This document shows, one piece after another, positions 22,823 to 34,960 of a stretch of DNA of 35,463 bases (positions are counted from its first letter, which is position 1; each line of letters begins with the position of its first letter). Below the pieces are notes generated by a model that searched no databases, was not told the DNA's origin, and saw only the letters and a list, made by a program, of their open reading frames with translations. Source of the DNA: Synechococcus sp. CS-1329. GTDB lineage: Bacteria; Cyanobacteriota; Cyanobacteriia; PCC-6307; Cyanobiaceae. The stretch lies in contig NZ_JAHLYS010000044.1 of NCBI RefSeq assembly GCF_025128055.1, forward strand, positions 1-35,463, in the 5' to 3' direction. Position numbers and translations under genes: made by a program.

Positions 22823-23374
22823 TCAGAAGCGGGAGCCTGGCTGCTCCAGAAAGGCCAGCTCCTCGGCGCTGGAGCTGCGTCCGAGGGCCTCGTTGCGGTG
22901 GGGGAAGCGCCCGAACCGGGCGATCACATCGCGGTGACGCCGGGCGAACTCCGTGGTTTTGGTGTCGGTGAAGCGCTCAAACAGCTTCAGTCCCTGCTCC
23001 TGGATCGCCAGGTCTTCGCTGTGCATCACGGGCATCAGCCAGAACTGGCGCCGACTGGGCTGGGCTTCAGCTTCGATCCAGCCCCTGGCCAGGGCCGCCA
23101 GGCTCAACTCCAGAGCGGCGGCATCCCCGGCGAAGGCCCCGGGCTGATCGCGCCGGAGTTGCCTGGGGAGCTGATCGAGCAGCAGCACCAGAGCCAGGGC
23201 TGAGCCCGGCTGATCAGCCCACGGCTGTAGGTCCCCGGCCAGGGCCCGCTCGCTCAGTGGCCCGAAGCGTTCGCGCACCTGCTGATCGAAGGCGGGATCC
23301 TTGCGGAACCACTGGGCCGGCTGACACTCCTCGAACCAGAAGCGCAGCAGATCGGGGGCGCCAGGGTCGCTCAT
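22823..23374 (-). CDS. DUF924 family protein
   Basis: A 183-aa helical protein with the DUF924 features: start LLRFWFEECQPAQWFRKDPAFD, the central LLLDQLPRQLRRD, FWLMPVMHSEDLAIQEQGLKLF, and near the C terminus RRHRDVIARFGRFPHRNEALGR. The fold is TPR-like and members are widespread; the biochemical role is unknown. The start codon overlaps the pirin stop (4-bp ATGA overlap), so the two are translationally coupled. Confidence 0.9.
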   Translation of the reverse strand: MSDPGAPDLLRFWFEECQPAQWFRKDPAFDQQVRERFGPLSERALAGDLQPWADQPGSALALVLLLDQLPRQLRRDQPGAFAGDAAALELSLAALARGWIEAEAQPSRRQFWLMPVMHSEDLAIQEQGLKLFERFTDTKTTEFARRHRDVIARFGRFPHRNEALGRSSSAEELAFLEQPGSRF

Positions 23375-24102
23375 GCCAGCTCAAACAGCAGCAGATCGGT
23401 GCCGGCCGCCGTGGCTGTGAGCTCCCCTGATTCGCCGGCGAGGAAGCCGAGGCCATCGCCGGCCCCCAGGGGCTGGGACCCGTCTGGTCCGCTCAGCTCC
23501 ACGGCCCCATCGATCAGCTGCAGCCAGGCCTGGCGCCCGGCCGCCAGGGGCAGCTGGAGGCTGACACCTGCACTGGGCTGGGCCCGCCACAGCCGCACGG
23601 GCCGGTGGATCGCCATGGCTCCCTCACTCTGCTGGGGGTCCAGCAGCAGGGTCCAGTGGTCGCCGAAGGCGAAGGGCTTCTGTTCATAGGCCGGCTCGAT
23701 GCCGCGGCTGCTGGGCTCGATCCAGATCTGCAGCAGCCGGCAGGGGCTGGTGGATTCATTGATCTCGCTGTGGACCACGCCAGTGCCCGCACTCATGCGC
23801 TGCACCTCCCCCACCCGCAGCACGGCGCCGTGCCCCATCGAATCGCGGTGGCTGAGCTCCCCCTCCACCATCACCGTGATGATCTCCATGTCGCTGTGGG
23901 GATGCATCCCGAAGCCACGCCCGGGGGCGATGGTGTCTTCGTTGATCACCCGCAGGGGGCCGAAGCCCATCCAGGCGGGGTCGTAGTGGTGGCCGAAGCT
24001 GAAGCTGTGCCGGCTCTCGAGCCAGTCGAGCTGGCCATGGAAGCGTTCGGTCGCCGGCCGTAGCAGCGTGCCGCTGCGCCGGCCGGAGGTGGTGGTGGGC
24101 AT
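23371..24102 (-). CDS. Pirin family protein (quercetinase-like)
   Basis: A bicupin of 243 aa. The N-terminal cupin holds the metal ligands of the family: His67 and His69 (GMHPHSDME), His111 and Glu113 (GVVHSEIN). Bacterial pirins such as YhhW show quercetin 2,3-dioxygenase activity; physiological roles differ and include redox sensing and metabolic control. It lies downstream of rubrerythrin and overlaps the DUF924 gene by 4 bp. Confidence 0.92.
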   Translation of the reverse strand: MPTTTSGRRSGTLLRPATERFHGQLDWLESRHSFSFGHHYDPAWMGFGPLRVINEDTIAPGRGFGMHPHSDMEIITVMVEGELSHRDSMGHGAVLRVGEVQRMSAGTGVVHSEINESTSPCRLLQIWIEPSSRGIEPAYEQKPFAFGDHWTLLLDPQQSEGAMAIHRPVRLWRAQPSAGVSLQLPLAAGRQAWLQLIDGAVELSGPDGSQPLGAGDGLGFLAGESGELTATAAGTDLLLFELA

Positions 24103-24136
24103 GGCAGGGAGAAGATGGGGCAGGCGAGGCCGGCGT

Positions 24137-24850
24137 TCAGGCCGCCAGCAGCTCCGGCTCGCGGTAGGGCTCGAAGCTGGCCTTGCGGACCCCGCAGATC
24201 GGGCATTCCCAGTCGTCGGGGATGGCCTCGAAGGGGGTGCCGGCGGCGATGCCGGAATCGGGATCGCCGATGGCGGGGTCGTAGATCATCGAGCACACCT
24301 TGCAGATCCAGAGGCCGGGCAGGGGCTCACTGGCCTCACCAGCGGTGCCCTCGCCGGCGAGGGCCCGCAGGGCGATGCCGTAGCGGTCGGCGTGGTGCTG
24401 CTCAATGGGGGTGAGGAAGCCGAAGTTGCTGGCGGCCTTGCGGAAGACACCGGCGTGGTCTTTGGATTCAGCGATCTGCTCGTTGAATTCGGCTTCGGCG
24501 CTGGCATCGCGCTCGGCGCGGGCAGCGGCGGCGAATTCCGGGTACATGGTGGTGTACTCGTAGGTTTCGCCCTCGATCGCCAGCTCCAGGCAGCGGGCGA
24601 GCACCGCCTGCTTCTGCTGCTCGCTGAGGGAGGCGGGATCGGCGACCACCAGCTCGGGATGGAGCAGGCGGAAATGGGCGAAGGCGTGTTCGGTCTCCTG
24701 GTTGGCAGTGTCGCGGAAGAGGCGGGCCAGCTCGAGGTGGCCGAGCGTCTTGGCCACATTGGCGAAGAAGAGGTATTTGCGGTTGGCCATGCTCTCGCCG
24801 CCGAAGGCGGCTTCGAGGTTGGCGCTGGTGGCGGGGTTGGAGAGATCCAT
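24137..24850 (-). CDS. Rubrerythrin
   Basis: A non-haem di-iron peroxidase. From the ATG at 24850 the protein is 237 aa, with a ferritin-like four-helix domain containing ETEH (residues 52-55), a middle EGETYE and a late EQHH (150-153). A C-terminal rubredoxin domain has CKVC (183-186) and CPIC (216-219) as the iron-sulfur-free Fe(Cys)4 site. It reduces H2O2 with electrons delivered through the rubredoxin. An upstream GTG/ATG-type start at 24940 would overlap flv1. It lies 73 bp after flv1 on the same strand. Confidence 0.93.
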
Positions 24851-24923
24851 GGGTGGAGAAGGCTGGAAGCGCCGGTCTCCCCTCAACCTAGCACTAAGTC
24901 GGAGTGAGTATGAGTTAGCGCGA

Positions 24924-26789
24924 TCAGTAGTTGGCCCCACTGCGCCGCTTGTGCACCGCCGTGGTGCCGGAGGGATCCAGCAGGGCGCCGTGGCTCACCT
25001 CGGCGTAGATCAGCCAGTGATCTCCGCATTCCATTCGCTGGCTCACCCGGGCCTCCAGCCAGGCCAGGGCCTCGGGCAGCACCGGCTGGCCCTCCGGGCT
25101 GTTCTCCAGCTCCAGACCTGCCAGACGATCGGCGCCGGGGGGGAACGGCTGCAGGAACTGCTTCATCGGCCCGCTCTCGCGGCCGGCGGCCAGCACGTTG
25201 AGGGCAAAGCCATCGCCCACATGCAGCAGCGCCTCGACAGCGCGGTCTTTGGCCACCGCCACCGTGAAGCCGGGTGGACTGAAGCTGGCCTGGCTGACCC
25301 AGCTGGCCACCATTGCCCCCGCCAGCGCGCCCTCCCCTTCCCCCTTGCGGGTGGTGAGCACGCAGAGGGAGCCCACCACCCGACCGAGGGCCAGCACGGC
25401 CGGGTTGCTGCGGCTCTCACTCAGGCCACCGGCGGCCACCCGCTTCTGACGTTTCTGGCGCTGCTGCAGCTCGCGCCCAAGGGCCGTGCCGGTTTCCTCC
25501 AGCCGTTTGAGGGTGGCGCCATCGGGGCTGAACTTCACCCGGATCGGCTCGAAGGCGAAGCGGAAGCCCCCGTCGCGCAGCTTGCTTTCCAGCAGGTCGA
25601 TCGCCTCGCCACTCCAGCCGAAGCTGCCGAACACCCCCACCGGCTTGTCGCGGTCGCCCTCCGCCAGCAGGGTGCCCAGGGCGGAGACGATCGGTGTGGG
25701 GGCATGGCCCCCGAGGGTGGGGGAACCGATCATCAGGGCGTCGCAGCCGCGAATCGTCTGCAGCAGCTGCTCGGGGGGCGCGAATTCACAGTTCAGGCTC
25801 TCGACCCGGACCCCCGTGCGCGCCACCCCCTGGGCCAGCGCGTCAGCGATGGCGGCGGTGTTGCCGTAGGCGCTGGCATAGAGCAGGGCCACCGAGAGCT
25901 GGGCCTTCTCCTGGCTCTCGCCCCAGCGGCGGTAGTCGGCCAGCAGGCTGCGCCAGCTTTCGCTGATGGCCGGGCCGTGGCCCGGGGCGATCGTGCGGAT
26001 CGGCAGCTCATCGAGGCGATCCACCACCGTTTCCACCTGGCGGGCCATCGGCGCCATCAGGCAGTCGTAGAAGTAGCGGCGATCCTCCTCGGTGCTGTCG
26101 CGGTTGGTCTCGGCCCAGCGCTCGCTGCAGCGGTGGGCGGCGAAGAACTTGCCGCTCATCAGCAGGCCGCTGCCCTCCTCGAAGGCCACCAGGGCACTGG
26201 GCCAGCGGGGGGTGGGGGTGGGAATCAGGTTCAGCCGATAGCCGCCCGCCAGCTCCCGGCTCACCTCCTGCTTGATCACATCGATCGGGGGCAGGGGCGG
26301 CAGGGGCGGCTCCGGCTCGGCATCGGCGCCAGCTCCCCCAGCAGGGGCGGTGGGCCGACGCTGGCTCCAGAGGTCCTGCAGCAGGCGGGCACCGGCATTG
26401 GAGGCCACCAGCATCAGGGCCGGCCATCGCAGCGCCAGCTCCCGCAGCAGCGTCACCCGGTTGGGGTTGAGGTGGCCCACCACCACCTTCAGGGCCGCCT
26501 CACTGGGCACCAGCTCACTGAGCTGCTCCAGGAACGGCGCCGAGAACGAGGCCCCCGGGGGATGCACCAGCACCGGCGGGATAGGGGTGCCGGTGCTGCT
26601 GCTGCCGGCCTCGAACAGAAACGCGTTGGCGGTGGTGCCCCGCTCCAGGCCGTATTCCACCTCGAAGCGCAGGCGCTTGGGGCTGAGGCCCCGCAGGCAG
26701 ATCAGACCGGGCTCGATCGGCAGCAGAATCACGCGCCTGTCGGAGGCCGCGGCAGCGGCGCTGGGCGCGGCGGCAGAGGAGCTGGCCAT
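24924..26789 (-). CDS. flv1: Flavodiiron protein Flv1-type (with flavin reductase domain)
   Basis: Class C cyanobacterial flavodiiron protein of 621 aa: metallo-beta-lactamase-like domain, flavodoxin domain (about residues 315-460) and C-terminal NAD(P)H:flavin reductase domain. The canonical di-iron motif HxExDH is replaced by HLNPNR at 106-111, and the Asp position in the next ligand region is Lys (LLMSGKFF). These substitutions identify the Flv1 side of the Flv1/Flv3 pair. Together they reduce O2 to water with photosynthetic electrons without releasing ROS. Its ATG overlaps the flv3 stop (TGATG). Confidence 0.93.
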
Positions 26790-28621
26790 CAGTAGTGGTT
26801 GCCCACCTTGCGGTGGTGCACGGCGGTGGTGGCTTCACTGTCGGCCACGGTGCCCTCCTCCACCTCGGCGTAGATGATCCAGTGGTCGGGGCCCTCCATG
26901 CGCTGGACCACCCGGCAGCCCAGGAAGGCCAGGGCATCCCCCAGCACCGGACCACCTGCTGACACCCCATCGAGGGTGGAGACACCGGAGAAGCGATCGG
27001 CCCCGGGCGGAAAGCGCTTGAGGAAGTGCCGCAGCAGCTCCTGGTGGTTGTCCTCACGCAGGACATTGAGCACGAAGCGGTCGCCCACCTGCATCAGGGC
27101 CTCGATGGCCCGGTCCTTGGCCACGGCGATCGAGAGGCCCGGCGGATCAAAGCTGGCCTGGCTCACCCAGCTGGCCACCATGGCGCTGCTCCGCTCCCCC
27201 TGGCGGGCGGTGACGATGTAGAGCCCGCCGCTGAGGCGGCCGAGGGCCTTGTCGAGGTCGCCATCCAGCGACTTCATCGCGGCGATCGTGCGGGCGCGAC
27301 CGAGCAGCTGGCCCAGGTCAGTGCCGGCCTCTTCGCAGCGCTGGTAGTCGTTGCCATCGGGCACCTGGCGGATGCGCAGCGGCTCGAAGGCCTCTTTCTG
27401 TCCGACGCTGCGCAGCTGGGCGGCGACGCTGTCGATCGGCTGGTCGTTGCCGCCGTAGGCGTCGTAGACCGCCACCCATTGCTTGGGCTTGAGGGCGGCC
27501 AGCAGGGTGCCGATCGACTGCTGCAATTCCGGGTCGGCCTTGGCGGGCCAGGTGGGCACCACCACGGCGCTGGCCTCACCCACCAGGGCCGCCAGTTCCT
27601 GGGCATCGGTGGCGCGCAGATCCACCAGCTGCACCTGGGCTTCGGCCTTGCCGATGCCGCGGGCGATGGCCTGGCTGAGCCGGTCACAGAAGCCGTACTG
27701 GCTCACATAACAGACGGCCGCATAGGTTTCACCGGCGCTGCGCTGGCTGCTCCAGTCGCGGTAATCGCCGGTCCAGAGACCGAGGTGATCGCGCAGCAAC
27801 GGGCCATGACCCGTGGCGATCATCTGGATCGGCGGCAGGGCGTCCATGCGCTTGAGGGCCTGCAGCACGCTGCGGGCGTTGGGGCCCATCAGGCAGTCGT
27901 AATAGAAGCGGAAATCGGGGGCGATGGCGCCGGGATCGACATCGAAGATGTCGTCGCCGCAGTAGTGCAGACCGAAGGCATCGCAGGTGTAGAGGATGCC
28001 CGTGCCGTGATCGAACGAAAAGATCGTGTCGGGCCAGTGCAGGTTGGGCGCGCTCAGGAATTCGAAGCGGTGCTGCACGCCGCTGCTGGGATTGACGCCC
28101 AGGTCGAGTTCTTCGCCGCTCTTCACCGCCCGACTGCGGAAGGGCCGGTGCACCTGATCGGCGAGAAATTGGATCGCCACCTTCGAGGCCACGATCTCGA
28201 TCTCGGGATTTCGCTCCAGCAGGTGGCCGATCAGGCCGGAGTGGTCAGGCTCGGTGTGGGACACGATCAGGTGATCGATGGCCAGCGGATCGATCTGCTC
28301 CTCCAGCAGGGGCAGCCAGGTGTCGGCGAATTTGAGATGACTGGTGTCGATCAGGGCGGTGCGCTCTCCCCGCACCAGAAAGGCGTTGTAGGTGGTGCCG
28401 TTGCGCAGGCCGAACTCGATGTCGAAGCGGCTGCGCTCCCAGTCGAGGGAGCGGATGGTGGTGGAATCGGCTCCGATCTCTGCGGCCTGGAGGGAGAGGC
28501 GGGGCGGTGCAGCGGTGGCGACGGTCATCGACGGCGTCTGCGAGGGAGTCGACTCTAGAAACGCCATTGGGCTTTCTTCGGCTGCAGTGGCGCCCAAGGC
28601 GGTCTGGGCCGATTCGGCCAT
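26789..28621 (-). CDS. flv3: Flavodiiron protein Flv3-type (with flavin reductase domain)
   Basis: Partner of the neighbouring Flv1 protein. In this 610-aa protein the di-iron ligands are conserved: HTEPDH at 122-127, His195 and Asp214 (YTCDAFGLHY). The flavodoxin domain and the C-terminal flavin reductase domain follow. In cyanobacteria Flv3 and Flv1 act as heteromers in a Mehler-like reaction, protecting photosystem I during light changes. The start is ATG 28621; ATGs at 28567 and 28528 are alternatives and would remove a low-complexity N terminus. It is transcribed divergently from sbtA. Confidence 0.93.
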   Translation of the reverse strand: MAESAQTALGATAAEESPMAFLESTPSQTPSMTVATAAPPRLSLQAAEIGADSTTIRSLDWERSRFDIEFGLRNGTTYNAFLVRGERTALIDTSHLKFADTWLPLLEEQIDPLAIDHLIVSHTEPDHSGLIGHLLERNPEIEIVASKVAIQFLADQVHRPFRSRAVKSGEELDLGVNPSSGVQHRFEFLSAPNLHWPDTIFSFDHGTGILYTCDAFGLHYCGDDIFDVDPGAIAPDFRFYYDCLMGPNARSVLQALKRMDALPPIQMIATGHGPLLRDHLGLWTGDYRDWSSQRSAGETYAAVCYVSQYGFCDRLSQAIARGIGKAEAQVQLVDLRATDAQELAALVGEASAVVVPTWPAKADPELQQSIGTLLAALKPKQWVAVYDAYGGNDQPIDSVAAQLRSVGQKEAFEPLRIRQVPDGNDYQRCEEAGTDLGQLLGRARTIAAMKSLDGDLDKALGRLSGGLYIVTARQGERSSAMVASWVSQASFDPPGLSIAVAKDRAIEALMQVGDRFVLNVLREDNHQELLRHFLKRFPPGADRFSGVSTLDGVSAGGPVLGDALAFLGCRVVQRMEGPDHWIIYAEVEEGTVADSEATTAVHHRKVGNHY

Positions 28622-28693
28622 CTGATGGCAGGCATAGGCAGGGCTTGGCCCATCGGCAGGCTTCCGCTTTCAAGCCCCTGGCACTGAGTCATC

Positions 28694-28712
28694 AGATAAA
28701 CCAGGCTTATCT
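28694..28712. promoter_or_regulatory. Inverted repeat AGATAA-N7-TTATCT upstream of flv3
   Basis: Six-base perfect arms separated by seven bases, centred about 82 bp upstream of the flv3 ATG. The arrangement has the symmetry of a dimeric LysR-type operator. Whether it binds a regulator (for example a CcmR/CmpR-like protein) is unproven. Confidence 0.4.
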
Positions 28713-28958
28713 TAGGGATTTGCAACTCTTTGCGCAGCGGGCACCCAGTGCCATCGGGATGGAATTACCGTCTTGCAGACTTAATTTATTACCAATCATG
28801 TCTGTCCGTTGAGGGCACCGGATCACTCCTCTGGATAGGGCCTCTCTCTGCCATCCAGGCGTGAACTCCCTATGCGCTCTGCCCCATTTTCATCGGCTGC
28901 CACAACGCGCCTTTCTCATCCCTTGCCACCTCGCTGCCAATCCATGCTGCCTGTCTGA

Positions 28959-28987
28959 AGATAAATTACGGTCTGAGCTTTTTATCT
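28959..28987. promoter_or_regulatory. Second inverted repeat with AGATAAA / TTTATCT arms
   Basis: Seven-base perfect arms with a 15-base centre, in the middle of the flv3-sbtA spacer. The same AGATAA...TTATCT hexamers occur at 28694-28712, so this may be a second site for one regulator or a weak hairpin. No assignment beyond that. Confidence 0.35.
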
Positions 28988-29374
28988 GAGCCTTCTCAGA
29001 AAGTGCATGACGCGTAGCCTCAGCCGCCAACTCTCGTTTCTGAAATTGGCGAAAGATGGTTGCACTGATCGCCAGAATCAAACGAGAAGCAAGGTCCTTG
29101 CTTGTCTCTCATTTCAGGCAACTCACCTGGTTGAGATTCTCGCAATTGCTCATCCTTGCTGACGTTTCTGAGGGCTTCGGCCTCTCCCGGATATCGAAAT
29201 CATGGCACCTGATTTCTTTTTCTGCTGTGGCGATGACAGAGGCTCACTCATCCAGCGGTGTGCTCGATAGCCAGGACTGAAGTTCATTCATTGAATTTCA
29301 GGCCTGGCTGCAATGCATGCCCTCTCTATTGATTTTTCAACGACTCAAGCCATCAACAAACGTGAGGATTCGAA

Positions 29375-30370
29375 TTGTCTGATTTTCTTGAGCTATTCAT
29401 AAAGCAAGTTCAATCTCCGACACTTGGCTTTTTGATCGGCGGTATCATTGTTGCTTCATTCGGTAGCCAGCTGGCCATCCCGGATTCGATCTACAAGTTC
29501 ATCACCTTCTTCCTGCTGCTGAAGATCGGATTGAGCGGTGGCATCGCCATTCGCAACTCCAACATTTCTGAGATTCTTCTCCCGGCCCTGGCGGCTGTGG
29601 TGATTGGTGTTCTGATTGTCTTCATCAGCCGGTTCACCCTGGCGAGATTGCCGGGCATCAAATTCGTTGATGCTGTAGCAACCGGTGGCCTGTTCGGTGC
29701 CGTGAGTGGCTCCACCCTTGCGGCCGTACTGCCCCAGCTGGAGTCCTCCGGCATCAAGTTTGAGGCCTGGACTGCCGCCCTCTACCCGTTCATGGACATT
29801 CCGGCGCTGGTGACGGCGATCGTGGTGGCCAGCATCTACACCAGCAAGAAGACCGGGAACTCTGCTGAAAATGTTGAAATCTGGCCCATTATCAAGGAAA
29901 GCCTGCAGAGCTCGGCTGTCTCGGCATTGCTGCTGGGCGTTGCCCTTGGCATCGCCACCAAGCCTGAGCCTGTGTACGAGAGCTTCTTCAACCCGCTCTT
30001 CCGCGGCTTCCTCTCGATCCTGATGATCATCATGGGGATGGAGGCTGCTCAGCGCATGAATGAGCTGCGTAAGGTGGCCCAGTGGTTCGCGATCTATGCC
30101 TTCATCGCGCCGCTCCTGCACGGCTTTATTGCTTTCGGCATTGGCATGGTCATTCACCAGATCACCGGCTTCAGCATTGGCGGTGCCGTGGTGCTGGCTG
30201 TGATCGCTGCCTCCAGCTCTGATATCTCCGGCCCACCGACCCTCCGAGCCGGCATCCCTTCAGCGAATCCCTCTGCCTACATTGGCGCCTCCACCGCCAT
30301 CGGCACTCCAGTGGCGATCGCCATCGGCATCCCTCTGTTCATTGGGATTGCCGAGATGATCGGTGGCTAA
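29375..30370 (+). CDS. sbtA: Sodium-dependent bicarbonate transporter SbtA
   Basis: High-affinity Na+/HCO3- symporter of the cyanobacterial CO2-concentrating mechanism. The 331-aa protein starts with TTG at 29375, seven bases after a GAGG ribosome-binding site. Family blocks include TLGFLIGGIIVAS, LLLKIGLSGGIAIRNSN, ATGGLFGAVSGST, ALYPFMDIPALVTAIVVA and ASSSDISGPPTLRAGIPSANPSAYIG. Hydrophobicity suggests ten membrane segments in two inverted halves. The cytoplasmic loop between halves (about residues 156-168) is only about 13 residues, versus a much longer loop recalled for Synechocystis SbtA. It is followed by sbtB after 35 bp. Confidence 0.95.
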   Translation: MSDFLELFIKQVQSPTLGFLIGGIIVASFGSQLAIPDSIYKFITFFLLLKIGLSGGIAIRNSNISEILLPALAAVVIGVLIVFISRFTLARLPGIKFVDAVATGGLFGAVSGSTLAAVLPQLESSGIKFEAWTAALYPFMDIPALVTAIVVASIYTSKKTGNSAENVEIWPIIKESLQSSAVSALLLGVALGIATKPEPVYESFFNPLFRGFLSILMIIMGMEAAQRMNELRKVAQWFAIYAFIAPLLHGFIAFGIGMVIHQITGFSIGGAVVLAVIAASSSDISGPPTLRAGIPSANPSAYIGASTAIGTPVAIAIGIPLFIGIAEMIGG

Positions 30371-30405
30371 GCTGTTAAAATTAAAACCAATCGCAGGTTA
30401 AAGCC

Positions 30406-30720
30406 ATGAGTCAACAGGTCTGGAAGTTGGTGATTGTTGGGGAGGAAATCCTCTCCAAGAAGCTCATCAAGCTCATCAAAGCGGCGGGTGCCACCGGGTA
30501 CACCGTGAATTCAGCTGGTGGAGAAGGCAGCCGCAATGTGCGCTCCACGGGAGATCCGGTCGTCTCGCATACGCTCTCAAACGTGAAAATCGAGGTGCTC
30601 ACCGGCACCCGCGAGCTGGCCGACAAGATCACCCATGAGATCGAGGCCAAGTTTTACGCGGATTATTCGATCATTACTTATATCTACCAGGTGGAAGCCC
30701 TGCGCGATCACAAGTTCTGA
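30406..30720 (+). CDS. sbtB: PII-like regulator SbtB (truncated C terminus)
   Basis: SbtB is a trimeric PII-like protein that binds adenine nucleotides and controls SbtA. This 104-aa protein has the core [27 protein letters not shown], the T-loop region [14 protein letters not shown], and the final [16 protein letters not shown]. The C-terminal redox loop CGPEGC known from Synechocystis SbtB is absent: the protein stops right after the HKF that aligns with HTF before that loop. The pair sbtA-sbtB looks cotranscribed and ends at a terminator at 30741-30777. Confidence 0.95.
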
Positions 30721-30791: not shown

Positions 30792-31649
30792 TCAGGGATT
30801 GCACAGCGGGCAATGCTGCGGATCGGCCTCAGCCCATCCATCAAGGCGCGGGCGCTCCTCGCTGTGGGAGCAACTGATGCAGCCGAACCGCTCGCTTCGC
30901 ACCAGGGAGGTGGGCCTGCCGCACCAGCTGCAGGGCAGGCCGTACACCACCTCCACCTTCCCCCAGCCCGGCACGCCGCAGGCCTTGCAGGGAGTGGAGA
31001 TCCGCTTCGCCAGCCCGGTGGCGAGGGTGCGCAGACAGGCCATGCGGGTGGGGTTGCGGTGGGCGCGCATGTCGGTCTCCACCAGGGCCCGGCCGTTGCT
31101 GGAGCCGGCTGCGGCTGCGACGATCGTCTCAGCCAGCCGCTGCTGATCTGCCAGATCCTTGAAGAGCAGCTCCTGGGCGTCAGGCCAAGGTTGTTCGGGG
31201 CGCACGATCAGGCCATGGGCGGGAAAGCCCACCCGTTGAGGCCAGCTCTCCAGCTCCGCCGGTTCAGCGACACAGCGGTGATCAAAGTTGGTGTGCCGGG
31301 CGATCCGCCGCTCCCAGATCTCCAGGCCGCGCTCCCGATCCAGGAACACCATCAACTCCAGACCCGCCGCCAGGAAAGGCAGTTGGGGGTGGGGGCCAAA
31401 GCTGCCCTCACTGGCCAGACCGAGCGGCAGGTTCAGGCTCTCCATGCCCAGTTGGGCCTTGCGGCGGCAGGCCTGCTCAGGGCTGCCCGTGCGTGGTACC
31501 CGTCCGTCGAAGCTGCCCAGTTGATCTGTGTCCAGGTGGGCCGGGAGTTCCAGCTCCAACCCGAGCAGAGCGCGAAACGGGCGAGCGAGTGCCCTCTCCT
31601 TGCCGTGCATGGTGGCCAGGGCGGCCTTAGCCCCGAAATAACACTCCAT
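30792..31649 (-). CDS. DUF6671 family protein with zinc-ribbon C terminus
   Basis: From the ATG at 31649 the protein is 285 aa. The family core is visible: AKAALATMHGKERA, DTDQLGSFDGRVPR and LASEGSFGPHP. The C terminus has four CxxC pairs (CKAC, CSWC, CISC, CPLC), able to bind two zinc ions in ribbon folds. Function is unknown. The frame is open upstream to an ATG at 31775, but those 42 residues do not look conserved. It is divergent from the NRAMP-like transporter at 31922 and converges on sbtB. Confidence 0.8.
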   Translation of the reverse strand: MECYFGAKAALATMHGKERALARPFRALLGLELELPAHLDTDQLGSFDGRVPRTGSPEQACRRKAQLGMESLNLPLGLASEGSFGPHPQLPFLAAGLELMVFLDRERGLEIWERRIARHTNFDHRCVAEPAELESWPQRVGFPAHGLIVRPEQPWPDAQELLFKDLADQQRLAETIVAAAAGSSNGRALVETDMRAHRNPTRMACLRTLATGLAKRISTPCKACGVPGWGKVEVVYGLPCSWCGRPTSLVRSERFGCISCSHSEERPRLDGWAEADPQHCPLCNP

Positions 31650-31712
31650 GACGGCTGGGGGATCCCAGACGGAATCCAGCTCAGATGAGGGCTCAAACCT
31701 AAGCAAATGTTG

Positions 31713-31756
31713 GCCAATCCAAAATGGAGGCCTGAGGCTGAAGGCGATGGATTGGC
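31713..31756. repeat. Nine-base inverted repeat between DUF6671 and NRAMP-like genes
   Basis: GCCAATCCA (31713-31721) and its exact complement TGGATTGGC (31748-31756) are separated by 26 bases, in the divergent intergenic region. It could be an RNA hairpin or a spaced protein-binding site. No riboswitch class is recognised. Confidence 0.35.
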
Positions 31757-31921
31757 AACACAGAACCCACTCCATCCAGCCAGGAGAGCCTTCGCGCCTG
31801 ATTCAGCCGAGGCCGAACAACGTTTGAGGCTGCGAAGGCAGGTGGCCTTAGCCCACAGGAGTGCAGGGGGGGGAATCCAGCTGCTCTCGATTGGTCAAAC
31901 TGATGGCTGCCCAGGGCCGCC

Positions 31922-33211
31922 ATGATCCCCACCACTGATGCCAGCCGGCTGAGCCTGGCTGGCCTGCGCCAGAGCCTCGGGCCTGGAATCCTGCTGGCTG
32001 GAGCCGCGATCGGGGGCTCGCACCTGGTGGCCTCCACCCAGGCGGGAGCCCGCTACGGCCTGGGGTTACTGGGACTGGTGCTGTTGATCAACCTGATCAA
32101 GTACCCCTTTCTGCTGGTGGGCACGCGTTTCACGGCCGCCACCGGGTTGAGCCTGCTGGAGGGGTATCAACGCCAGGAGCGCTGGTATCTGCCCCTGTTT
32201 CTGTTGATCACGGCCGCCACCGGGGTGGCCAACATCGCGGCGGTGGCGGCCGTGACGGGCAGCCTGGCCACCAGCCTGCTGCCCGCCTCGATCGGGCCGC
32301 TGCTCTCGAGCACCAGCCTGGCCGTGCTGCTGTTGGGGTTTTGCCTGGTGCTGCTGCTCTGGGGTCATTACCGCAGCCTGGATCGTCTGAGCAAGGTGGT
32401 GATTGCGATCCTGGTGCTGAGCACCACCGCCGCCAGCCTGGCGGCCCTGCTCAGGGGGCCTGCCTCCGGGGCGGCAATCGGCGCCATGTTCAGCCCCAGC
32501 CCCTGGACCCTGCCGGCGCTGCCATTCCTGATCGCCCTGATGGGCTGGATGCCCTGCCCGTTGGATCTGGCGGCCTGGTCGTCGCTGTGGATCTTCGCTC
32601 GCCGTGAGGATTCCGGCCATCGCGGCAGCCGGGCTGAACTGGAGGCCGACTTCAACCTCGGCTACGCCGCCACCGTGCTGATGGCGGTGCTGTTCCTGGT
32701 GCTGGGAGCCTGGGTGATGCACGGCACCGGCCGCAGTTTCTCACCGGCCGGTGCCCGCTTCGCCCAGCAATTGATCGAGCTCTACACCGCCAGCCTGGGG
32801 AGCTGGGCCTACCCGCTGATTGCCCTGGCGGCCTTCACCACCATGTTCAGCACCACCCTCACCTGCCTCGATGGCTATCCCCGCTCGGCCTCGGCCGGGC
32901 TGCGGCTGCTGCGGGGATGTCGTGGCCGCGACGTTCAGGACCGTGGCGATCACAGTCTCTGGATGGCCGTGCATGGCCTGGCGGCCGCTGGTGTTCTGCT
33001 CTTTCTGGCCCCATCGATGGGTGCTTTGGTGCAGCTGGCGATGGTGGTGTCATTCGTGACCACGCCCCTGCTGGGCTGGATGAATCTGCAGGTGATCCAG
33101 GGTCGGCAGGTGCCTCCGGACGGGCGGCTGGGGCCAGCGCTGCTGACCCTGGCCCGGGCGGGCCTGGTGGTTCTCACCGGCTTTGTGGTGATCTTTGCTC
33201 TGAGTCGTTGA
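31922..33211 (+). CDS. NRAMP-family-like transporter with non-canonical metal-site motifs
   Basis: A 429-aa polytopic membrane protein (roughly eleven hydrophobic segments) with the NRAMP/LeuT-type start GPGILLAGAAIGGSHLVASTQAG. Canonical NRAMPs have DPGN in membrane helix 1 and MPH in helix 6; here the corresponding positions read GGSH and MPCPLD. The metal-coordinating set is therefore altered, as in NRAMP-related proteins such as the magnesium transporters, so the cargo may not be Mn or Fe. It is divergent from the DUF6671 gene. Confidence 0.85.
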   Translation: MIPTTDASRLSLAGLRQSLGPGILLAGAAIGGSHLVASTQAGARYGLGLLGLVLLINLIKYPFLLVGTRFTAATGLSLLEGYQRQERWYLPLFLLITAATGVANIAAVAAVTGSLATSLLPASIGPLLSSTSLAVLLLGFCLVLLLWGHYRSLDRLSKVVIAILVLSTTAASLAALLRGPASGAAIGAMFSPSPWTLPALPFLIALMGWMPCPLDLAAWSSLWIFARREDSGHRGSRAELEADFNLGYAATVLMAVLFLVLGAWVMHGTGRSFSPAGARFAQQLIELYTASLGSWAYPLIALAAFTTMFSTTLTCLDGYPRSASAGLRLLRGCRGRDVQDRGDHSLWMAVHGLAAAGVLLFLAPSMGALVQLAMVVSFVTTPLLGWMNLQVIQGRQVPPDGRLGPALLTLARAGLVVLTGFVVIFALSR

Positions 33212-33625: not shown

Positions 33626-34960
33626 ATGTCCAAGCGTCGTCAATTCCTCTCCCTTGCGAGTGCAGCCCTGGTGGGCTCCATGATGCTGGGAGGCTGCATG
33701 GGCACTCCCCCAGACAAGGGCGGTGGTGCTGCTGATACCTCCGCACCGTCGGCCACGGCTGACAAGGGCCTTGAAACCAAAACGATCAACCTTGGCTTCG
33801 TGCCGATCCTCGAGGCTGCTCCCCTGGTGGTGGCCGTTGAGAAGGGCTATTTCGCCAAGCATGGCCTTGATGTGAATCTCACCAAGCAGGCCAGTTGGCC
33901 CGCTGCCCGCGACAACGTGGTGCTGGGCTCCAAGGGTGGTGGCATTGATGGCGGTCAGTGGCAGTTGCCGATGCCGCAGATGATCAGTGAGGGGGCCATC
34001 ACCGACGGCAAGAAGGTGCCGATGTACATCCTGGCGATGCTGATGAGCCAGGGCAACGGGATCGCCGCCTCCAATAACATCAAGGGCGCCAACCTCACGG
34101 TTGACCTCAAGAAGTCGGCGGGGTTCTTCTCTGATTTCTCCAAGAAGGAAGGCCGTAAGTTCCGCGCCGCCTACACCTTCCCGAAAGCCAACCAGGACAT
34201 CTGGATCCGCTACTGGCTGGCGGCTGGTGGGATTGATCCTGACAAGGAGGTGGAGCTGCTGACTGTGCCCTCCACCGAGACCCTGCAGGGGATGCGCAAC
34301 GGCACGATGGAAGCCTTCTCCACCGGCGACCCCTGGCCCTCCAGGATCGTCAAGGACGACATCGGCTACCTGCCGGCGATCACCGCCCAGATCTGGAAGT
34401 CGCACCCCGAGGAGTATCTGGCCGTCCGTGCCGACTGGGTCGACAAGAATCCCAAGGCCACCATTGCCCTGATCAAGGGCCTGATCGAGGCCCAACAGTG
34501 GATGGACAAGGCCGAGAATCGCTCGGAAGTGGCCAAGATCCTCAGCTCACGCAAGTGGTACAACACCCCTGTTGCAGTGCTGGAGGAGTCGATCAAGGGT
34601 CAGTACCTCATCGGAGCCGACAGAAAGCCCGAAACTGATCCAGCCATGGGCCCGCTCTATTGGGACAGCGATCGTGGCGTGATCTCCTATCCCTACAAGA
34701 GCCTGACCCTCTGGTTCCTGGTGGAATCCCTGCGCTGGAAGTTCTATCCCGGCACCGTTGACACGATTGCCCAGGCCAAGGCCATCAACGACAAGGTGAC
34801 CCGTGAGGATCTCTGGATCCAGGCGGCCAAGGAGCTGGGCCTTCCCGCTGCCCAGATTCCCACCAGCTCCAGCCGTGGCAAGGAAACCTTCTTCGATGGT
34901 GTCGTTTACGACCCAGAGAATCCCCAGGCCTACCTCGATTCCCAGAAGATCAAAAAGTAG
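33626..34960 (+). CDS. nrtA: Nitrate/nitrite ABC transporter substrate-binding lipoprotein NrtA
   Basis: Periplasmic binding component of the NrtABCD nitrate/nitrite importer. The 444-aa precursor has a twin-arginine-like N terminus (SKRRQFL) and a lipobox LGGC with lipid-modified Cys24. Family blocks: FVPILEAAPLVVAVEKGYFAKHG, SKGGGIDGGQWQLPMP, NQDIWIRYWLAAGGIDPD, GTMEAFSTGDPWPSRIV and ETFFDGVVYDPENPQAYL. These match NrtA better than the related bicarbonate protein CmpA (which has THDLWxRYW and FCVGEPW). The His that contacts nitrate in Synechocystis NrtA appears to be Tyr183 here. nrtB follows but is cut off. Confidence 0.92.
   Translation: MSKRRQFLSLASAALVGSMMLGGCMGTPPDKGGGAADTSAPSATADKGLETKTINLGFVPILEAAPLVVAVEKGYFAKHGLDVNLTKQASWPAARDNVVLGSKGGGIDGGQWQLPMPQMISEGAITDGKKVPMYILAMLMSQGNGIAASNNIKGANLTVDLKKSAGFFSDFSKKEGRKFRAAYTFPKANQDIWIRYWLAAGGIDPDKEVELLTVPSTETLQGMRNGTMEAFSTGDPWPSRIVKDDIGYLPAITAQIWKSHPEEYLAVRADWVDKNPKATIALIKGLIEAQQWMDKAENRSEVAKILSSRKWYNTPVAVLEESIKGQYLIGADRKPETDPAMGPLYWDSDRGVISYPYKSLTLWFLVESLRWKFYPGTVDTIAQAKAINDKVTREDLWIQAAKELGLPAAQIPTSSSRGKETFFDGVVYDPENPQAYLDSQKIKK

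Follow-up and report, generated by a model that had tools for sequence, protein, structure and literature searches.

Locus and gene content

The window, that is, the whole stretch of DNA analysed, covers 35,463 nucleotides of contig NZ_JAHLYS010000044.1 from Synechococcus sp. CS-1329 and carries, near its end, a plus-strand open reading frame (31922-33211) which starts with ATG and encodes 429 amino acids with zero internal stops. The open reading frame and its Nramp homology are real: Pfam PF01566 (Nramp) scores 40.8 bits against the protein, above the curated cut-off of 29.8, and the nearest solved fold is that of DraNramp, so that the assignment to an Nramp-like transporter, made in a preliminary description of this DNA, holds. 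The cut-offs of the NCBIfam Nramp_1 equivalog (43.1 bits; cut-off 50), TIGR01197 (28.2 bits; 272.5) and the NCBI MntH model (23.1 bits; 430) are not reached. The best NCBI model name for the protein is 'Nramp family divalent metal transporter', at a score below that model's cut-off; the same model is matched, with E up to 0.001, by all 28 rows of one alignment of the clade to which the protein belongs, for which the name SH was coined in this analysis. By profile search, the gene is the sole PF01566 match in the host genome. Its features, in window positions, are as follows.

31922..33211, plus strand: SH-type transporter gene, 429 amino acids, predicted LeuT fold (ORF translation, Pfam, AF2 model, fold search)
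32012..32023, plus strand: codons G31-G32-S33-H34 in TM1, in the place of DPGN (D56-N59 of DraNramp) (ungapped alignment; conserved)
32237..32248, plus strand: codons A106-A109 in TM3, in the place of the proton-path acids, with no acid (phmmer and MAFFT alignment)
32543..32566, plus strand: codons G208-W-M-P-C-P-L-D215 in TM6, with C212 at M230 and L214 at H232 of DraNramp (alignments; helix break at 208-212 in the model)
32849..32872, plus strand: codons S310-T311 to D317 in TM8 (MAFFT alignment; D317 conserved)

At 23371-30720, minus-strand genes encode Pirin, a rubrerythrin-rubredoxin and a pair of flavodiiron-type proteins; divergent to them run sbtA, of the Na+-dependent bicarbonate transporter family, and an sbtB-like gene of the PII family. 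Together they make up an oxygen-stress and carbon-uptake cluster. Between this cluster and the transporter lies a minus-strand DUF6671 gene (30792-31775), divergent from the transporter; in SynAce01 and ATX 2A4 the SH gene has the DUF6671 gene on its opposite flank, in convergent orientation. Downstream, the gene of an NMT1_2-family lipoprotein (33626-34960), which we take to be a substrate-binding protein of the NrtA/CmpA type, is followed by sequence that the contig end cuts off.

Predicted fold and motif sites

An AF2 model from 27 rows (pLDDT 83.7, pTM 0.85) has the LeuT fold of the solved Nramps, the best solved structure being DraNramp 6d91 (Z 38.8, rmsd 3.0, 382 residues), followed by human NRAMP1 (Z 34.9), EleNRMT (33.5), the amino-acid antiporter AdiC (32.3) and the YcsG model 9a52 (31.6), which was found by the fold search and is absent from the sequence-search matches. 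DSSP describes TM1 of the model as a single helix (residues 21-45) with no visible unwinding, and the TM6 helix is broken at 208-212.

GGSH and MPCPLD, reported in the preliminary description as the helix-1 and helix-6 sites, are located in the translation at residues 31-34 and 210-215, respectively. As also claimed there, DPGN and MPH are both missing from the whole 429-amino-acid protein, and the metal-site residues of true NRAMPs are absent, with GGSH in place of DPGN and W-x-x-C-P-L in place of A-x-x-M-P-H. The register was taken from phmmer (against human NRAMP2), MAFFT (a broad set) and hhalign (profiles), which all agree and are gap-free at both sites; anchored on the common glycine G208, C212 corresponds to M230 of DraNramp, P213 to the next proline and L214 to H232. 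The canonical MP aligns two residues downstream of the visible 'MP' of TM6; MPCPLD therefore marks the region of the helix-6 site but is not an edited MPH in register, and a reading of the visible 'MP' as the canonical one with only the histidine changed was rejected since all three aligners give the other register. Against the canonical signature (DxxN in TM1, A/CxxM in TM6) the protein presents GGSH and WxxC followed by P-L, and against the NRMT signature DxxG-TxxA/T (PMC8806188) it presents GxxH-WxxC; it has neither signature.

The proton-path positions of TM3 are A106 and A109, which are A, T, S, V, G or L in all SH rows with letters there, an acid occurring in none. In TM8, the S/T pair 310-311 presumably resembles the Na2 site of LeuT; canonical Nramps also have S there in the MAFFT alignment, and the pair is thus uninformative on a Na+ site. 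The D317 position is L in the six canonical rows of that alignment.

Conservation and distribution of the SH clade

Conservation was determined over 94 distinct rows from 106 loci, a set that omits strong matches without a locus from the picocyanobacterial and Bacteroidota genome surveys, and in which each site is without letters in one row. G31, M210-P211, a D or E at 215, and D317 are each present in 93/93 rows with letters, H34 in 92/93 (the single R belongs to L011, the frame of which is broken there) and P213 in 89/93. G-W-M-P of TM6 is invariant or nearly so, and position 212, in the place of the methionine, is variable (I in 26 rows, A in 25, G in 23 and C in 19), giving an SH signature of I/V-G-x-S-H in TM1 and G-W-M-P-x-P-x-[DE] in TM6. 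Relatives share 73-89% identity in Cyanobium/Synechococcus, 45-58% in most further picocyanobacteria, 35-43% in Flavobacteriaceae and other Bacteroidota, and 36-37% in Neisseria, Photobacterium and Pseudoalteromonas; the Neisseria gonorrhoeae record (L100, NZ_CP119140.1), a PLSDB plasmid of 2.17 Mb, is probably a chromosome. Judged from these alignments, the substitutions are more than chance, being kept in relatives at 35-89% identity.

The SH gene is present in 44 of 151 genomes of the picocyanobacterial family, in one piece in 42 (including G158, with an in-frame TAG) and split in two; three more weak matches in this survey are canonical-type proteins or a fragment of one. Canonical-type proteins occur in 20/151 genomes, whole in 18 and as fragments only, classed by score, in two; all 18 whole proteins have both DPGN and MPH. 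The two types occur together in 2/151 genomes versus 5.8 expected (hypergeometric p 0.033, kinship not controlled), and 42 of the 44 SH-bearing genomes encode no second PF01566 protein; SH is likewise the only PF01566 protein in the Synechococcus single-cell genome of L012. In Bacteroidota, a strong match (E under 1e-100) was obtained in 41/198 genomes. None of the eight further genomes searched from the genus of the window has the SH gene, and its distribution is therefore patchy. The split genes, in-frame TAG or broken frame seen in G099, G155, G158 and L011 may reflect decay or sequencing faults.

Phylogenetic placement

In a 52-row tree the SH clade forms one group (support 99), nearest to which are GASH proteins of Azospirillum/Skermanella and one haloarchaeal protein, and next other proteins with G at the position of D56. 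In a 50-row tree, a branch with support 100 sets SH apart from the remaining rows, and so does one (100) for the canonical rows together with all D-bearing NRMT-like rows. SH does not group with the typical Mn transporters: an AU test rejects SH and canonical rows forced together (p 1.6e-6), the latter being E. coli MntH and five cyanobacterial-phylum proteins, with clade B, clade C and eukaryotic Nramps absent from the trees. It also rejects SH forced together with the NRMT-type rows (p 1.7e-66), represented not by EleNRMT itself but by seven cyanobacterial-phylum proteins named by motif, of which six fit DxxG-TxxA/T and L083 has S at the last place. In a 57-row tree, in which the deepest split is weak (78) and the long rows L131 (second copy), L132, L196 and L198 are unsurely placed, the SH clade is whole (100), and a G-type group linked to oxoprolinase genes falls on the canonical side, not beside SH. 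L099 was omitted from all three trees, and L087 and L133 from the 50- and 57-row trees.

Profile comparison by hhalign gave E values of 1.6e-30, 1.4e-22 and 1.4e-19 over 384, 373 and 392 columns, respectively, for SH against three groups with G at D56, 1.2e-9 over 374 columns against full-length NRMT-type rows, and 1.4e-6 over 372 columns against full-length canonical rows. SH is a real clade, distinct and well conserved, within the Nramp-related ('outgroup') part of PF01566.

Gene neighbourhoods and regulation

Among 26 cyanobacterial SH rows (some being the same contig twice), flavodiiron-type genes are near in 12 and sbtA in five; other neighbours are hemL, Hsp20, MEKHLA and lineage-specific genes. 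Rubrerythrin and flavodiiron-type proteins, which are iron proteins, are among these neighbours. A bicarbonate link through the sbtA-sbtB genes near the window gene was dropped because these are missing beside most relatives. The order ECF sigma factor, SH gene, lipA is found in 17 of 19 non-cyanobacterial loci (L015-L034 without L026), much of the region being syntenic; 18 of these loci are titled Bacteroidota and one, L023, Candidatus Rokubacteria, the latter having the Flavobacteriaceae arrangement and possibly being a misbinned contig. Other Bacteroidota neighbours include genes for HlyIII-like, peptidase M14, DUF218, amidohydrolase, sulfatase, serine dehydratase, acetyl-CoA synthetase and acyl-CoA hydrolase proteins, of which only HlyIII-like and DUF218 directly adjoin the SH gene in the same orientation. 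The annotated part of the SH-clade neighbours contains no catabolic gene that is adjacent and co-directional, no metal regulator and, like the neighbours in the window, no pxp (5-oxoproline) gene; an acyl-CoA hydrolase (L189), an acetyl-CoA synthetase (L194) and amidohydrolases (L181) are in opposite orientation or separated by another gene. The SH gene neighbourhood gave no lead to a substrate.

Fur-box-like sequences were searched for in the 26 cyanobacterial rows, 30-260 bases before the GPG codon (some coding sequence included), against 100 shuffles. One row, L106 (12/19), has a match beyond all shuffles; L121 has 14/19, reached by five of 100 shuffles, and the window gene 9/19, not beyond shuffles. 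A scan for sigma-70-type promoters found none.

Cargo of the SH proteins

The SH proteins have a LeuT-type predicted fold and form a clade of their own, and they have lost both metal motifs as well as the acids of TM3. With the metal-holding amino acids missing, the usual label 'manganese/iron transporter' is doubtful. The cargo specificity is probably different from that of true NRAMPs, as the preliminary description had proposed, given the loss of the metal site and the strict requirement for aspartate at position 56 of DraNramp, the only protein in which D56G was tested and where it led to no Mn2+ import (preprint PMC13060092).

The best overall explanation, to which we assign a probability of roughly one half, is that of a LeuT-fold, Nramp-related carrier of a small organic cargo, transporting neither Mn/Fe nor Mg. 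Such a protein would operate as a secondary transporter by alternating access and would hold its cargo with mid-TM1 on one side and the broken TM6 on the other, where H34, D/E215 and the backbone may stand in place of the D-N-M metal cage; it would be neither a proton-coupled Mn2+/Fe2+ importer nor an NRMT-type Mg2+ carrier. The cargo would most likely be a small organic solute, such as an organic anion, a lactam/amide or an amino-acid-like compound, an even bet made by analogy and argued as for the relatives PxpT/YcsG. The non-metal substrate suggested in the preliminary description is favoured by distant relatives and would be a candidate for the SH clade. Na+ as the coupling ion would be a guess from the fold and from many marine hosts (hosts not counted).

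The relatives in question were found in 23 plasmid regions (5/8, 12/34, and 6 among 60 matches listed), which were picked for diversity and not at random; three regions, with members of the SH clade, are without annotation, and the 20 annotated ones were counted. In 19 of these 20 the relative has G at position 56, and in L198 it has E. Seven have a same-strand enzyme of acid/amide metabolism within 85 bp, all with G at D56: a thiolase behind CoA-transferase genes, a UxaA hydrolase, a phosphoglycerate dehydrogenase behind an aldolase, an FAD-binding oxidoreductase, an amidase and, in two regions, hydantoinase/oxoprolinase A and B. One further relative lies 8 bp behind a GH43 gene, and the other 12 regions have no such enzyme neighbour within that distance. 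On haloarchaeal plasmids (L197:3998-8868 and L199:3989-8825) the Nramp-related gene leads without a gap into hydantoinase/oxoprolinase A and B, a hint that this G-type group may carry a lactam or hydantoin. Growth on 5-oxoproline depends on the actinobacterial PxpT, which shares 50% identity with YcsG; the authors of that study leave metal transport possible (PMC13274462). Counting against an organic cargo, the organic-acid-linked relatives are distant from SH (about 24% identity), two relatives lie close to a dihydroxybenzoate-siderophore cluster and to iron ABC genes, respectively, and the cyanobacterial neighbours of SH include the iron proteins mentioned above.

That the protein still imports divalent transition metals, through a rebuilt site and independently of protons like the clade B Nramps, is a rather unlikely reading that nevertheless has several points in its favour. 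H34, D/E215, D317 and C212 could bind metal in another geometry, and H34 and D/E215 are kept in all but one row with letters, but the methionine position 212 is occupied by I, A, G or C, and D56, M230 and the TM3 acids have no counterpart. YcsG raises cellular Mn2+, importing it in vivo, and was renamed MntG (PMC10448178), clade B imports metal without the proton path (PMC12873925), and N59 of DraNramp tolerates other polar residues (PMC13060092). SH and canonical genes also seldom share a picocyanobacterial genome, as if interchangeable; against this, the SH clade is far from the canonical Nramps, the partly annotated neighbourhoods show no metal regulator and the Fur-box scan gave its single hit beyond shuffles. 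Magnesium, the other cargo put forward in the preliminary description, is unlikely, and an NRMT-type Mg2+ transporter is highly improbable: the fold is common with EleNRMT, and canonical Nramps become less selective when the methionine is lost (PMC8806188), but NRMTs keep the TM1 aspartate where the window protein has GxxH-WxxC, and the forced grouping is rejected by the AU test. That the protein is a transceptor, or a decayed transporter that no longer transports, has an equally slim chance; the site is without metal ligands and the gene is split or has an in-frame stop in three of the 44 SH-bearing picocyanobacterial genomes (G155, G099 and G158), but TM1, TM6 and TM8 residues are near-invariant across phyla.

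The SH proteins, which are widespread in marine picocyanobacteria and Bacteroidota and carry the label of Mn/Fe importers, may be organic-solute carriers, perhaps Na+-coupled, and represent one of several such lineages within Pfam Nramp, from which kind the metal Nramps would have arisen by gaining the TM1 aspartate, a tentative view held at somewhat less than even odds. Earlier work cited in PMC4072509 placed the Nramp outgroup as a link that connects metal transporters with those of non-metal substrates.

Relation to known systems

Canonical Nramp/MntH proteins (DraNramp, E. coli MntH) and SH share the Pfam family, the whole-length LeuT fold and aligned landmarks, namely GPG and AGA-FG of TM1, the G and P of TM6 and the S-S/T of TM8, whereas they differ in both metal motifs, in the acid-free TM3 of SH and in their clades. 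EleNRMT (Mg2+) shares with SH the fold and a position 230 without methionine; NRMTs differ in retaining the TM1 aspartate, and SH lies outside the NRMT-type clade. The 'G-motif' proteins, YcsG-MntG and PxpT resemble SH in having G at D56 (if 'G-motif' means that), no MPH and, for the YcsG model, the fold, YcsG and PxpT being likened to SH by fold model (YcsG) and description and not by sequence clade. Other G groups have D, E, T, S or H as the fourth residue, whereas SH has H together with its own TM6 signature GWMPxPx[DE].

Nramp-related proteins without DPGN/MPH have been described as paraphyletic below the canonical Nramps and mostly uncharacterised (PMC12873925), and no study recognisable as one of the SH clade was found in the open-licence literature. 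Added here to these published proteins are the SH clade, its register and its likely misannotation in marine picocyanobacteria. A 'Mn2+ and Fe2+ NRAMP-type transporter' was reported in 38/48 marine picocyanobacteria and in no freshwater strain (PMC9361551), and NRAMP Fe/Mn was counted under iron transport in PMC10545762. This gene of marine Synechococcus, CK_00001683 or 'NRAMP Fe/Mn transporter', which both papers call a metal transporter, is probably the SH gene, since SH is the only PF01566 protein in 42 of the 44 genomes that carry it; the identification comes from genome content and not from the cluster sequence. Counts of this gene are used in ocean papers for iron adaptation and the marine/freshwater divide, and these inferences would need correction if the SH gene carries no metal. 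The clade also offers a clean test of which members of the Nramp family gave up metal transport or lacked it from the start. A second PF01566 protein accompanies SH in the Dokdonia genome G310 (L138:1429-2640, 300 bits), its TM1 reading IGPGT, a G-type motif like that of the haloarchaeal oxoprolinase-linked proteins.
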